Source of the DNA: a virus
Length of the DNA stretch: 21,363 nt
Direction: 5' to 3' (one strand)
Virus record (IMG/VR): IMGVR_UViG_3300049222_000560
Coordinates: 1-21,363 of that record
Shown in pieces: positions 7,361 through 11,712 of this stretch. How positions within the stretch are numbered: position 1 is the first letter of the stretch; the number at the start of each line of letters is the position of its first letter. Under the pieces are notes generated by a model. The model worked only from the letters and a program-made list of their open reading frames with translations, was not told where the DNA came from and did no database searches. Both the position numbers and the translations under genes were made by a program.

Positions 7361-7525
7361 ATGAAAATAACAGAGTTTAATAAAATGGTATGTGAGAAAG
7401 AAGGCGGACAAAAAGAATTGACGATTGCACAAGTGTCTGAGGTTATGAAAATTGCTAACGAGTTAACCAATGGCGTACTTTATGGCGTTATTGAGTTGAT
7501 GTCAACGCCAGAAAAAGATGTTTAA
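7361..7525 (+). CDS. Small protein of the lysis section, 54 aa
   Basis: The start is placed at the ATG at 7361 because AAAAGGATAAAAAA lies directly before it; an upstream in-frame ATG inside the 53-aa gene lacks an SD. The product, beginning MKITEFNKMVCEKEGGQKE, continues with L-T-I-A-Q-V-S-E-V-M-K-I-A-N-E-L-T and ends acidic. The pattern (K-x-x-E/D-F-x-x-x-V-C-x-x-E-G-x-x-K-x-L-x-I-A-Q-V) is one I associate with small conserved phage proteins near lysis genes; no function is established for it. It overlaps the holin-endolysin gene by 8 bases. Confidence 0.65.
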   Translation: MKITEFNKMVCEKEGGQKELTIAQVSEVMKIANELTNGVLYGVIELMSTPEKDV

Positions 7526-8474
7526 TATTGTAGGCAACCTTTTAGGGGGGGTTGTCAACACCGTTGGTGATGTTGTTAAGCGTGATCAACAAATTAAAAA
7601 AATTAAAGAAAAAGGTAAACTTGATATTCAACAAGCAAAGGTTGATCTTAATTTGGCAAAACTAAAAGCGCAAATTAAACAACAAGCTACACAAGCCCAA
7701 AATGACATGACCTATGATATGCAAGTACTAAAAAATAGGCGTGAATCGTTTATTGACGAGTTTATTATTTTAGGCTTTTTTGTCATTATGATACTAACGT
7801 TTATCCCGGCTACCCAAGCAACAATGGCCGAAGGTTGGAAAGCATTAAATGATACTGCTTGGTGGTTTGAATTTGGGATTGTTGGAATACTTGTCTCAAC
7901 ACTTGGACTTAAAGATGTGTTACGTATTTTTGTTGGTGGCTCCATAGATAAACTAAAAAAAAAAACGGTAAATGACAATAATAAAACGGTTTCCCGACTT
8001 CAGGAAGCCAATAATCTAAACCAGTCGAATTCGACCCCTTTAGAATACGATCTTATCTTTGATGTTGTTGATACGTGTAATGACCAAAAGCTAGGAAACT
8101 TATGTATAGGTGCGAATGTATGGCAGTGTACTAGTGGTGGCTATGGGAAAGGGCCATTGCCAAAGGGTATGTACATAATTGATAAATGCTACACATTAAA
8201 AAAAATAATGATAGAGAAAAAAGACAAAGACGGAAAAGTTATAATGGTTAATAAGGTTGAGGCTTACACAGGCAAAGAGTTTGCGTGGGTAGCTAAACTA
8301 AGTCCACAATTCGAAACAGATCGTACAGGATTATTAATACATCCCGATGGCAACTTACAGGGAACTAGAGGCTGTATTGGGATAAGTCAAAAAGAAAATG
8401 ATATAGAGGTTTATAACTCAATTAAAGAGTTGTTAAAAGTAAAAAAAGAATTGATACTTTATGTTAATAGCTAG
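7518..8474 (+). CDS. Holin-like membrane domain fused to L,D-transpeptidase/endolysin-like domain, 318 aa
   Basis: Residues 1-75 are amphipathic and charged, with a heptad-like helix (K-I-K-E-K-G-K-L-D-I-Q-Q-A). Two membrane helices follow at about 81-100 (F-I-I-L-G-F-F-V-I-M-I-L) and 116-139 (F-E-F-G-I-V-G-I-L-V-S-T-L-G), like 3TM/GTA-type phage holins. After a lysine-rich linker (146-165) lies a soluble domain with P-L-P-K-G-M-Y-I and then L-L-I-HPDGN at 272-279 and Q-GTRGCIGIS at 281-290. H275 and C286 match the His/Cys pair of YkuD-like L,D-transpeptidase and related peptidoglycan-cleaving folds. One polypeptide thus seems to combine membrane and cell-wall functions, normally two genes. 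An A11 tract marks the linker (7955-7965). A fusion is also possible from an assembly error. Confidence 0.78.
   Translation: MFNIVGNLLGGVVNTVGDVVKRDQQIKKIKEKGKLDIQQAKVDLNLAKLKAQIKQQATQAQNDMTYDMQVLKNRRESFIDEFIILGFFVIMILTFIPATQATMAEGWKALNDTAWWFEFGIVGILVSTLGLKDVLRIFVGGSIDKLKKKTVNDNNKTVSRLQEANNLNQSNSTPLEYDLIFDVVDTCNDQKLGNLCIGANVWQCTSGGYGKGPLPKGMYIIDKCYTLKKIMIEKKDKDGKVIMVNKVEAYTGKEFAWVAKLSPQFETDRTGLLIHPDGNLQGTRGCIGISQKENDIEVYNSIKELLKVKKELILYVNS
7955..7965 (+). other. A11 homopolymer at the holin/endolysin junction
   Basis: Eleven A bases encode L-K-K-K-T at residues 146-150, between the second membrane helix and the enzyme-like domain. Gain or loss of one base, by polymerase slippage or sequencing error, leads within four or five codons to TAA or TGA, giving a holin-only product of about 150 residues. 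Confidence 0.6.
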
Positions 8475-8583: not shown

Positions 8584-9051
8584 ATGAATAGAATACATGG
8601 AGCAACACCAAATAGACAAACACGTATAAGAAATACTGTTTATGTAGGTAATACATTAAATGGTAAAGCGGAGGGGCATGGGGTATTATGTCATCCTGAC
8701 GGTAGCGGTTATTGTGGCGAATGGGTCAACAATAAAAGACAAGGTTATGGTATAGAAACCGAAAAAATGGGAACAAAGTACGTGTATAATGGGCAATGGG
8801 TCAATAATAAAAAACAGGGAAATGGGAGTTGCATATATAATAATGGCAATTCTTACATTGGGCGATGGAAAAATGATAACCCACACGGTAAAGGCATTTT
8901 TCAGTGGAAGTCTGGGGGGAAAGTTAAAGGGGTATGGGTTGATGGGAAGATTGAAGGGGAAGCCCATTTAATTGATAAAAATGGCCTTCAATATGAAGCT
9001 GTATTTCGAGACGGGAAAGAACAATCTCGAACACCAATCCAACCCCATTGA
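8584..9051 (+). CDS. MORN-repeat protein, 155 aa
   Basis: Five to six tandem MORN-like units (Y-x-G-x-W-x-x-x-x-x-G-x-G) run from about residue 19 to 147, for example Y-C-G-E-W-V-N-N-K-R-Q-G-Y-G, Y-N-G-Q-W-V-N-N-K-K-Q-G-N-G, Y-I-G-R-W-K-N-D-N-P-H-G-K-G, with weaker units at both ends (Y-V-G-N-T-L-N-G, V-K-G-V-W-V-D-G). MORN repeats form elongated beta-hairpin rods that bind protein or lipid. There is no signal peptide. It stands alone between the lysis gene and the inverted portal, flanked by an inverted repeat upstream and a branched hairpin ending in T6 downstream, like an accessory cargo gene. A host-surface or modulatory role is only inference. The SD (AAAAAGGCG) is weak. Confidence 0.8.
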   Translation: MNRIHGATPNRQTRIRNTVYVGNTLNGKAEGHGVLCHPDGSGYCGEWVNNKRQGYGIETEKMGTKYVYNGQWVNNKKQGNGSCIYNNGNSYIGRWKNDNPHGKGIFQWKSGGKVKGVWVDGKIEGEAHLIDKNGLQYEAVFRDGKEQSRTPIQPH

Positions 9052-9214: not shown

Positions 9215-9544
9215 TTATTTTTTATAACGTTTTACAATGTTTTGCCCGATTTGTTTTAAACGTCGGACAGAGTCGTAATTGCTTGGTATTGGGGCATCCC
9301 ATCGCTTAAATTGCATTGCTGCTGGGGTAGGTCGCCCTTGTTTATCTTTTAAAGGTTGGCTTTGTTTTAAAATTTGTGTTGCTTTTCTTAATAGAAACTT
9401 GCCACGTGTCAGTTTGCGTGACGGACTAGCTTTACTAACATCCCTAACAGGACTAGCAACACTCCCACCGGCGCGGTTATATTCAGCCATTTTCTTATTT
9501 GTACGATTGTCATAGCGTTTATACTTTTCTTCCGCACTTAACAT
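9215..9544 (-). CDS. Small basic protein downstream of the portal, 109 aa
   Basis: The ATG at 9544-9542 overlaps the portal stop (TGATG); an in-frame GTG at 9547 would add one residue. The product is strongly basic (about one third Lys/Arg): an acidic-basic start (MLSAEEKYKRYDNRTNKKMAEYN), a Ser/Ala/Gly stretch with S-P-V-R-D-V-S-K-A-S-P-S-R-K, and a tail with R-R-L-K-Q-I-G-Q-N-I-V-K-R-Y-K-K. No domain is recognised. The coupling to the portal suggests a portal-associated, DNA-binding virion or assembly factor, but no evidence is direct. It is the last gene of the inverted two-gene segment, which runs into the structure at 9095-9197. Confidence 0.65.
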   Translation of the reverse strand: MLSAEEKYKRYDNRTNKKMAEYNRAGGSVASPVRDVSKASPSRKLTRGKFLLRKATQILKQSQPLKDKQGRPTPAAMQFKRWDAPIPSNYDSVRRLKQIGQNIVKRYKK

Positions 9545-11592
9545 CACCCGATACTATTTATAAAATTAGGTACTTGTGACATTTCATAGTTATTAATTGA
9601 ATCTGTAGCCATATCATCAGCCATTTCAGGTTGTGGCATTTCAGGCATTGGCATTGTTAAGCCTAAGCTATCCGTTATCGTACTAATTGCCGATACTTGT
9701 TGCTCAATAGGTAATACACCAATTAATTCAATGATATCTTTTAAGCTCATGTTTACGTTTTTGATGTATGCGTTAAAGTCTGGCTCAGGTATTGGCACTT
9801 GCGCCTGTTCATCTTGTTCTTCTTTTATTTTATTAATGATTGCTCGGTAGTTTGGATAATCTAGGGTGCGCAAGATTAACTCTTTAACGTCAGGATTATT
9901 GATATCACCAAAAATGCCTTGTTGAGCTAATTGCATGGTGGTTGCAGCGATTGCCGATTGTGATTGTGGCAATGAACTTCCAGCGGTTATTTCAACTTCA
10001 TACTCACCTAAAGTCAAATCAGATTTAATGGTATCAATGGCCATTAATTCGTCTGTTTGCATGTCACGATCATATATATTGATCTGCATTTCACCCATTT
10101 CATTAGGTTCCATCGAGGCAAATTGAGTTCCACTGGCCATACGTATGATTCGTGGTTGGTTGTAATATAACTGAATTAATACAACAGCTTTATTGCTTAT
10201 ATCAGCTAAAAAGTTTTTAAAATTCCGTTGCATTTCTCGAATGGATGACATTGGCGATTCAATCAAATCACGTACCATTTGACCACTATTAACACCGGTT
10301 GGGCGTTCACCTGAAAGCATAATCTCATTGATACGTGCTATTTTATAAGCATCCTGTTTTAAATCTTGTATGTGTTGCCTAATAATTTGGATATCCTGCG
10401 TTAGTTTATTGGTGACTAACATTGGTTGTGTCATTGGGTCACCCGGTTGGCTTCCAATAATATCGAAATTACCTTGAAAATGTCTGCGGTAGTTTTCAGG
10501 AACGATTAACATTGATTTGTATTTGACAATTAACTCTTGAAGTTTTGCGTATGCATTGGTTAAACGTGCTTGTATTTGCATTAAATCCTCAACGTCCCCT
10601 TGACCCATAAGAGAATCAGCTTGTGTCGGTGAGTAAGTTGCAAACGGAAAACCAAAGGGGTAATCAATTGGCCGATCTTCCAATATTTCCTCACCACTAA
10701 AAATGATTAAACGTCCGTTAGGGTATTTAAATCGTTCTTCCGTTTTCATTTCTTTGTCTTGTTCTGATTCATCATCCAAAGGAACAAGCACCGTATCATC
10801 TTTTAAGTAACATTCCCAAAGCTCAATATTATGCTCAGTTCCAGAAGGTTTTAAACTACCTTTGTTTAAATACATTTCACTACCGGTAGTTACACCGTTA
10901 GCGGTTACTTTACCAGCCACAACCTTGTTGGTAGGTTCACCCATGTCAATCGTTGCCGATGGGGAACTTAATTCATCAATCTTTTTAAGTATCTCTGGCT
11001 TATTTTTATATTGGTTGATCAAATCAAAACGACTTATAACACGCTTAACAAATATATAGTTACAGTTTTCAATACTCGTTGCTGTTGGTTCAGGGTAGAA
11101 ATCTAATGGACTAACACGCTCTATTCTTATATCCCCTAACCCATTATTAATTGATTGGTTCCATATAACCTTAGCAATCCCCACGCCATATATTGACCCA
11201 TCACGCATAACTTTTTGCGAGATGTTCGGTAATTCCGAACTTCTTTTAATGTTTTCCCAACAATCATTAAGAATGTCTGCGATTGATTCTAATTGTTTTA
11301 AGTTATCAAAAGTTTGATGTGATAGATTAGCAGGTTTAACGTTTGTCGTAATCATCGCATCCAAAGCAGTTGTAGCCTTAGTCTCAACGATTGGTTTTAT
11401 GACGTTATAATATGCGTTACCCTGCCCAGTACTACCAAGCGTGGTATTTCCATCACGGTCAACGCCAGTAATAGGCTCAAACGAACCATCATAATAACGC
11501 TTATATTTTTTTAATTGCTTGGTGTTATGCCCTGCCTTAGCCTGAGACAATAAATTATTCAGGTATTTAATAAAGGGATTATCCATAGGCAT
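9544..11592 (-). CDS. Portal protein (P22-like, short-tailed phage type)
   Basis: About 680 aa. The start is set at ATG 11592; TTG at 11601 and ATG 11586 are alternatives, none with an SD, and a TATTAT lies before 11586. Recognisable portal features include Y-Y-D-G near the N-terminus, N-V-I-K-P-I-V-E-T-K, V-M-R-D-G-S-I-Y-G-V-G-I-A-K-V-I-W, S-P-L-D-F-Y-P-E-P-T-A, Y-P-F-G-F-P-F-A-T-Y-S-P-T-Q, a G-Q-G-D-V-E-D-L-M stem-like helix, and P-T-G-V-N-S-G-Q-M-V-R-D-L. The C-terminal third is helical and Gln-rich, fitting the barrel of large portals. Portal rings form the DNA entry vertex and dock TerL. Its opposite strand to TerL and coat is unusual. Confidence 0.85.
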   Translation of the reverse strand: MPMDNPFIKYLNNLLSQAKAGHNTKQLKKYKRYYDGSFEPITGVDRDGNTTLGSTGQGNAYYNVIKPIVETKATTALDAMITTNVKPANLSHQTFDNLKQLESIADILNDCWENIKRSSELPNISQKVMRDGSIYGVGIAKVIWNQSINNGLGDIRIERVSPLDFYPEPTATSIENCNYIFVKRVISRFDLINQYKNKPEILKKIDELSSPSATIDMGEPTNKVVAGKVTANGVTTGSEMYLNKGSLKPSGTEHNIELWECYLKDDTVLVPLDDESEQDKEMKTEERFKYPNGRLIIFSGEEILEDRPIDYPFGFPFATYSPTQADSLMGQGDVEDLMQIQARLTNAYAKLQELIVKYKSMLIVPENYRRHFQGNFDIIGSQPGDPMTQPMLVTNKLTQDIQIIRQHIQDLKQDAYKIARINEIMLSGERPTGVNSGQMVRDLIESPMSSIREMQRNFKNFLADISNKAVVLIQLYYNQPRIIRMASGTQFASMEPNEMGEMQINIYDRDMQTDELMAIDTIKSDLTLGEYEVEITAGSSLPQSQSAIAATTMQLAQQGIFGDINNPDVKELILRTLDYPNYRAIINKIKEEQDEQAQVPIPEPDFNAYIKNVNMSLKDIIELIGVLPIEQQVSAISTITDSLGLTMPMPEMPQPEMADDMATDSINNYEMSQVPNFINSIG

Positions 11593-11712
11593 ATAATACA
11601 ACTAGAATTTTATATGTTCATTATTTTTTTTTAAACATTTTATTAATATTTTTAAACATTTTGTTAAAAAAAAGTAAATGCATTTTATAAATTCGGAATA
11701 TATGATTTTGGT
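11593..11712. promoter_or_regulatory. Divergent regulatory region with two AT-rich direct repeats
   Basis: TTTTTAAACATTTT(A/G)TTAA occurs twice (11628-11646 and 11649-11667), 21 bases apart with one mismatch. TTGTTA (11661-11666), 18 bases, TTATAA (11685-11690) is a possible plus-strand promoter, and a TATGAT (11701-11706) lies six bases before the ATG at 11713. TATTAT (11598-11593, minus strand) lies before the portal ATG at 11586. The repeat core and TTTGTTAAA are shared with the 1681-1754 region, suggesting a common regulator. Confidence 0.55.

Follow-up and report, generated by a model that had tools for sequence, protein, structure and literature searches.

In tailed phages, the holin and the endolysin are taught as separate genes, with the timing set by the holin. 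A wall enzyme fused to the C-terminal end of a holin is known from Clostridium sporogenes (TpeE family), where, however, all of the endolysin is fused, frameshifting is not mentioned, and the holin belongs to a single-helix family joined to a different enzyme (PMC9527704). The production of two C-terminal variants from one gene has been described for tssM1 of Citrobacter rodentium, an inner-membrane protein of a secretion system whose short form terminates close to a poly-A run. The A11 run of tssM1 slips at 20-25%, both forms are needed and their ratio matters, and the slippage was shown by mass spectrometry (PMC4256274). Short and extended forms in a set ratio are also made by phages in the case of the tail assembly chaperone gpG/gpGT, although through a ribosomal frameshift and in tail morphogenesis rather than lysis, as described in the available part of a recoding review (PMC5009743), a part in which holins are not mentioned.

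The gene considered here, from the virus record IMGVR_UViG_3300049222_000560, resembles tssM1 in its poly-A run and differs from it in that its C-terminal part forms an enzyme domain of its own and in that the run is kept across a phage clade. Poly-A slippage (PMC4256274 and, for its available part, PMC5009743) and a fused holin-endolysin (PMC9527704) are each known singly, and their combination appears, provisionally, to be new. Titles and abstracts of the literature searched, a body that mostly leaves aside subscription papers and preprints, link neither frameshifting nor slippage to a joint holin and endolysin.

Layout of the gene

The window is the whole analysed stretch of 21,363 nucleotides, which also codes for a terminase, a P22-like portal and a major head protein according to profile matches, and in which no Rfam match or tRNA was found. 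A single uninterrupted open frame of 318 codons (318 aa) runs from 7518 to 8474 on the plus strand. The original prediction of one polypeptide with a holin-like and an L,D-transpeptidase-like half and an A11 tract at the join agrees with this frame, the features of which are the following:

7518..7964, + strand: holin-like half, with a charged lead, two hydrophobic segments and a basic tail ending in the lysines of the A-run
7955..7965, + strand: A11, putative slippery run (A9-A11 in relatives)
7965..8048, + strand: linker, stop-free in the lysin frame
8015..8044, + strand: palindromic repeat TCTAAACCAGTCGAATTCGACCCCTTTAGA within the linker, translated NQSNSTPL
8049..8471, + strand: Tlde1/YkuD-like (L,D-transpeptidase-like) catalytic half, PF10908 E 2.7e-5 for the window
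8340..8342, + strand: codon of the candidate catalytic His275 (HPDG), invariant in 21 sequences
8373..8375, + strand: codon of the candidate catalytic Cys286 (GTRGC), invariant in 21 sequences

In the N-terminal half, hydropathy places hydrophobic segments at residues ~75-106 and ~113-140 behind a long charged helix, in line with the two membrane helices that had been proposed. The putative assignment as a holin draws on a match to PHROG 2524 (of unknown function, E 1.6e-18) and on a GTA_holin_3TM (PF11351) match of 18.6 bits, below the Pfam cut-off of 24.8; the latter family matches three of eight diverse members at E<0.05. It is also the family assigned to TeaA of phage ICP1, for which holin activity has been demonstrated and homologues of which occur in marine phages; TeaA is a holin alone, and neither a fused lysin nor an A-run is reported in the portion of that study at hand (PMC7182436). 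The outgroup phages HMO-2011, PA11 and Pseudoalteromonas phage ACA1 possess a holin-like gene, annotated as a holin in ACA1, which lacks the A-run. Since HMO-2011 and PA11 carry a separate annotated lysozyme or endolysin gene near it, the joined form looks derived. Basic residues precede the first and follow the second hydrophobic segment, which suggests, by the positive-inside rule, that both ends of the holin lie in the cytoplasm. The full-length structure model (pLDDT 66) does badly on the membrane segments and the linker, and nothing beyond its helices was interpreted.

The predicted motif HPDGN...GTRGCIGIS is present in the C-terminal half, and its His275 and Cys286 are conserved without exception across 21 aligned sequences. 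The Tlde1 profile (PF10908) scores 25.0 bits on the window, below its cut-off of 30.1, and matches 21 of 21 relatives (best E 5.6e-7), while YkuD matches 14 of 21 (best 3.8e-7). The namesake of PF10908, the type VI secretion effector Tlde1a, has the L,D-transpeptidase fold and trims or exchanges the tetrapeptide (PMC9638812). In contrast to Tlde1a, the phage lysin is joined to a holin and lacks the second His of (S/T)HGC, the motif reading GTxGC with x being R, T, Q or M in the 21 sequences. Differences per codon position of 0.20/0.14/0.42, with an excess at the third position, demonstrate that the lysin domain is under coding selection.

AlphaFold gives a mean pLDDT of 80 for the lysin half and is confident outside the linker. 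Fold matches in the PDB are weak, with DpaA, an enzyme of the L,D-transpeptidase family, ranking second (E 0.42); among viral proteins a DUF5675 protein is matched (E 8e-5). By sequence, the window protein had no match in the PDB, and the lysin profile had weak ones only, mostly to 14-residue stretches of designed proteins. No match to the lysin half was obtained by tblastn against 50,697 phage records, and the genome collection held one Tlde1-like protein, from a Zixibacteria MAG and not joined to a holin. Three distant viral lysins (L199, L200 and L203) were set aside, as they are not joined to such holins; that of L199 has its own Shine-Dalgarno-like stretch and ATG. Phage_lysozyme (PF00959) was not found in nine related records, and a Pfam search of 20 other ORFs or pieces of a 31-kb relative (G001) gave no lytic enzyme. 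As no other wall-degrading enzyme was recognised in this relative, the Tlde1-like domain may be the lysin, with the proviso that enzymes lacking a Pfam match would be missed.

Regarding the neighbouring genes, a MORN-repeat protein (8584-9051, + strand) follows directly 3' of the lysin. The P22-like portal gene and a small neighbour (9215-11601, − strand) are oriented against the terminase and head genes, an arrangement also seen in the 31-kb relative (L155/L156). The latter carries in addition a diaminopimelate epimerase gene (L155:12797-13516, PF01678, E 1.8e-33), which is of interest alongside an enzyme whose expected site of action in peptidoglycan adjoins meso-DAP.

The A-run and the reading frames in relatives

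Relatives were collected from IMG/VR with the linker, the run and the two protein profiles as queries, and were grouped at 97% lysin identity into 24 clusters. The first matches had lengths that are not multiples of three, because in nearly all relatives the holin frame ends directly behind the run while the lysin is read in -1. An A9-A11 run is present at the holin/lysin junction in all 24 clusters; the run search itself required at least nine As, and the lysin and holin profile searches alone added L150, L151 and L152, likewise with the run. Two further hits (L109 and L113) matched the run pattern by chance, neither half being present, and were discarded. Soon after the run the holin frame stops, usually as AAA AAA AAA CGG TAA (KLKKKR*), while a second holin type ends NGGL(K/T)GLVKKKR*. 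The lysin lies exclusively in the -1 frame in 22 of the 24 clusters, and the cluster of the window mixes A11 (in frame) and A10 (-1). The remaining cluster (L005, L006, L007 and L025), which may be one phage assembled several times, reads CT-A9 and is the sole one with the lysin in +1; the run holds three in-frame AAA codons in all the others.

Runs of A8-A10 are not rare in these genomes of roughly 64% AT, and the A-run alone therefore proves little. The clusters include holin types that are only 29-39% identical to one another, the lysins of relatives are as little as 40-47% identical to that of the window, and the very divergent L150, L151 and L152 still keep the run and the -1 offset. Conservation of the run at the frame junction in 24 clusters, taken together with the open linkers, exceeds what chance would be expected to give.

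The linkers are 21 to 135 nt long, always a multiple of three, and contain no stop in the lysin frame in 684 codons from 26 sequences, compared to 91 and 88 stops in the other two frames. Their lack of third-codon-position bias counts against recoding, and it indicates a spacer that is kept open without its peptide sequence being conserved. ATG, GTG and TTG are absent from 23 of the 26 linkers, including that of the window, for which the lack of an in-frame ATG as a separate lysin start had already been noted. No Shine-Dalgarno sequence with a start was found in the linkers, and in most relatives the first in-frame starts past the linker fall inside the lysin domain, at differing places. As judged from sequence, the whole enzyme cannot be made without recoding in most of the clade. 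Two genes with a stop between them, named beforehand as an observation that would speak against the prediction, are found in relatives as far as the stop is concerned, whereas a start codon for the second ORF is missing.

We have also considered an independent lysin gene, whose translation would begin at a non-canonical start or be coupled to termination of the holin, since an ATG often directly follows the holin TAA (TAAATGA). That ATG, however, belongs to the holin frame and does not occur in L004, L017, L150, L151 and L152, and neither a start position nor a Shine-Dalgarno sequence is conserved. An in-frame linker ATG occurs in the +1 cluster only, where it is perhaps an escape to separate translation. 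A separate gene is on these grounds very unlikely, and comparison across the clade points instead to recoding at the A-run as the conserved route to the enzyme.

The palindrome of the linker (TCTAAACC[A/G]GTCGAAWTCGACCCCTTTAGA), which at 8015-8044 of the window is coding, is found elsewhere mostly in intergenic positions outside the lysis genes. Besides the window it occurs in the phage contigs L034, L037, L039, L045, L053, L063, L064, L066, L069 and L081, with two tandem copies in L039, L063 and L081, and it resembles a small mobile palindrome or a recombination site. It was rejected as a frameshift stimulator, its distance to the run varying widely and L150, L151 and L152 lacking it altogether.

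Loss of one A from the run of the window turns the protein end into ...KLKKKR*, and gain of one A into ...KLKKKNGK*, in agreement with the stop within about five codons given in the original prediction. The former exists in L003, from another metagenome, which is 99.84% identical to the window over 4453 bases and differs by six substitutions and one gap, the gap being one A fewer in the run (A10), so that its lysin is out of frame. The contig L157 (L002), 97.4% identical over a 13.4-kb main block, has A11, and in the 31-kb relative, the two ends of which overlap (L155:1-140 and the final 150 bases of L156), one end has A10 and the other A11; its assembly seems to have been opened near the run. 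The run length hence varies between near-identical phages, be it as true variation or by slippage in amplification or assembly; homopolymer lengths in metagenome assemblies can err by one.

Two alternatives follow this variation. An assembly error, with a constant true run and a gene that is always fused or a lysin that is always out of frame, would draw on the error-prone sequencing and amplification of homopolymers, but it is hardly credible given that numerous metagenomes share the junction, with both A9 and A10 represented, and that 22 clusters differing in their flanks have the -1 frame, with linkers that stay open. Replication slippage could make the lysin phase-variable, A11 genomes giving the fusion and A10 genomes only the holin, as the A10 and A11 forms of L003 and the window and of the two contig ends would allow. 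We regard it as improbable, because the lysin is out of frame in 22 of 24 clusters and nonetheless open and under selection, and one would not expect phages to predominate that lack the sole lysin recognised in them. Variation of the run in DNA and slippage during transcription are, in any case, not mutually exclusive.

Proposed slippage by the polymerase or by the ribosome

The conserved A9-A11 between holin and lysin is probably a recoding site, most likely one of RNA polymerase slippage. With A10, or A9 after T, as in most of the clade, the unslipped mRNA would yield a holin of ~150 aa ending just behind the run, and one extra A in the mRNA would yield a ~300-aa holin-lysin fusion, the only form with the full-length enzyme. 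With the A11 of the window, the fusion would be made by default and the short holin from slipped mRNA. The proposal that slippage gives both a holin and a fusion from one gene is thus strongly supported by the relatives, from which both proteins would be predicted, but the in-frame allele on which it was built is the exception, considering the A10 of L003 and the out-of-frame lysin of most clusters; as the lysin mostly lies in -1, it is the fusion rather than the holin that would be the slipped product there.

Two of the features called for by transcriptional slippage are found here, namely a run of at least about nine at the frame junction that is kept in diverged relatives and, in all members of 22 of the 24 clusters, a downstream ORF that is open, out of frame and devoid of its own start. 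The E. coli RNA polymerase inserts by slippage about three times more often than it deletes (PMC6260861), a bias that would fit the one added A needed by these 22 clusters.

Alternatively, the polymerase could be faithful, with the fusion made through -1 frameshifting or sliding of the ribosome on A_AAA_AAA. The 22 clusters need exactly a -1 shift, and those in -1 have the heptamer A_AAA_AAA, of the X_XXY_YYZ type, in the holin frame; iterated AAA codons, moreover, reportedly cause E. coli ribosomes to slide (PMC4363877). However, A_AAA_AAG is reported to be far more shift-prone than A_AAA_AAA in E. coli (PMC5009743), and AAG is never used in the run. Its lysines are always AAA, while AAG turns up in 2-8 sequences at each of the other well-conserved Lys columns of the holin and makes up 58 of the 330 holin Lys codons, counts that come from sequences that are not phylogenetically independent. 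No shared hairpin adjoins the run within a few nucleotides downstream in nine relatives, an SD-like AGGA/AAGGA just upstream is confined to the second holin type (L040, L068 and L082), and the lysin of the +1 cluster would not be reached by a -1 shift. Ribosomal slippage is accordingly rather unlikely. Slippage by the polymerase is favoured because three frames (and three run lengths) occur around the same run, because the run codons are always AAA where other conserved Lys columns mix AAA and AAG, because the better ribosomal site is left unused, and because a shared hairpin at the right distance is lacking; it would be the RNA polymerase, not the ribosome, that slips.

Possible meaning for phage lysis

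If slippage by the polymerase operates as proposed, the short and long forms, which share the membrane half, would probably co-assemble, with some protomers bearing the enzyme. The enzyme would be anchored to the inner membrane at the site of the future hole, and kept there until hole formation or flipped across, as has been proposed for the Clostridium fusion (PMC9527704). The co-assembly, the topology and the function in lysis are inferred. More tentatively, and with somewhat less than even confidence, we suggest that slippage might set the ratio of short to long forms, giving a holin assembly with a fixed share of enzyme in which hole formation itself would deliver the tethered enzyme to the wall. 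The two holin forms may be likened to the Gag and Gag-Pol of retroviruses, which co-assemble in a set ratio.

For annotation, one base would decide whether gene callers miss the enzyme, for which a start codon is absent, or report a fused gene. An uncultured phage clade seems to join a holin and a wall enzyme in one gene, with their ratio set by slippage at an A-run. If true, this would be a lysis system in which the holin and the wall enzyme are one recoded gene, and it would offer a compact and testable system for how holins and wall enzymes cooperate.
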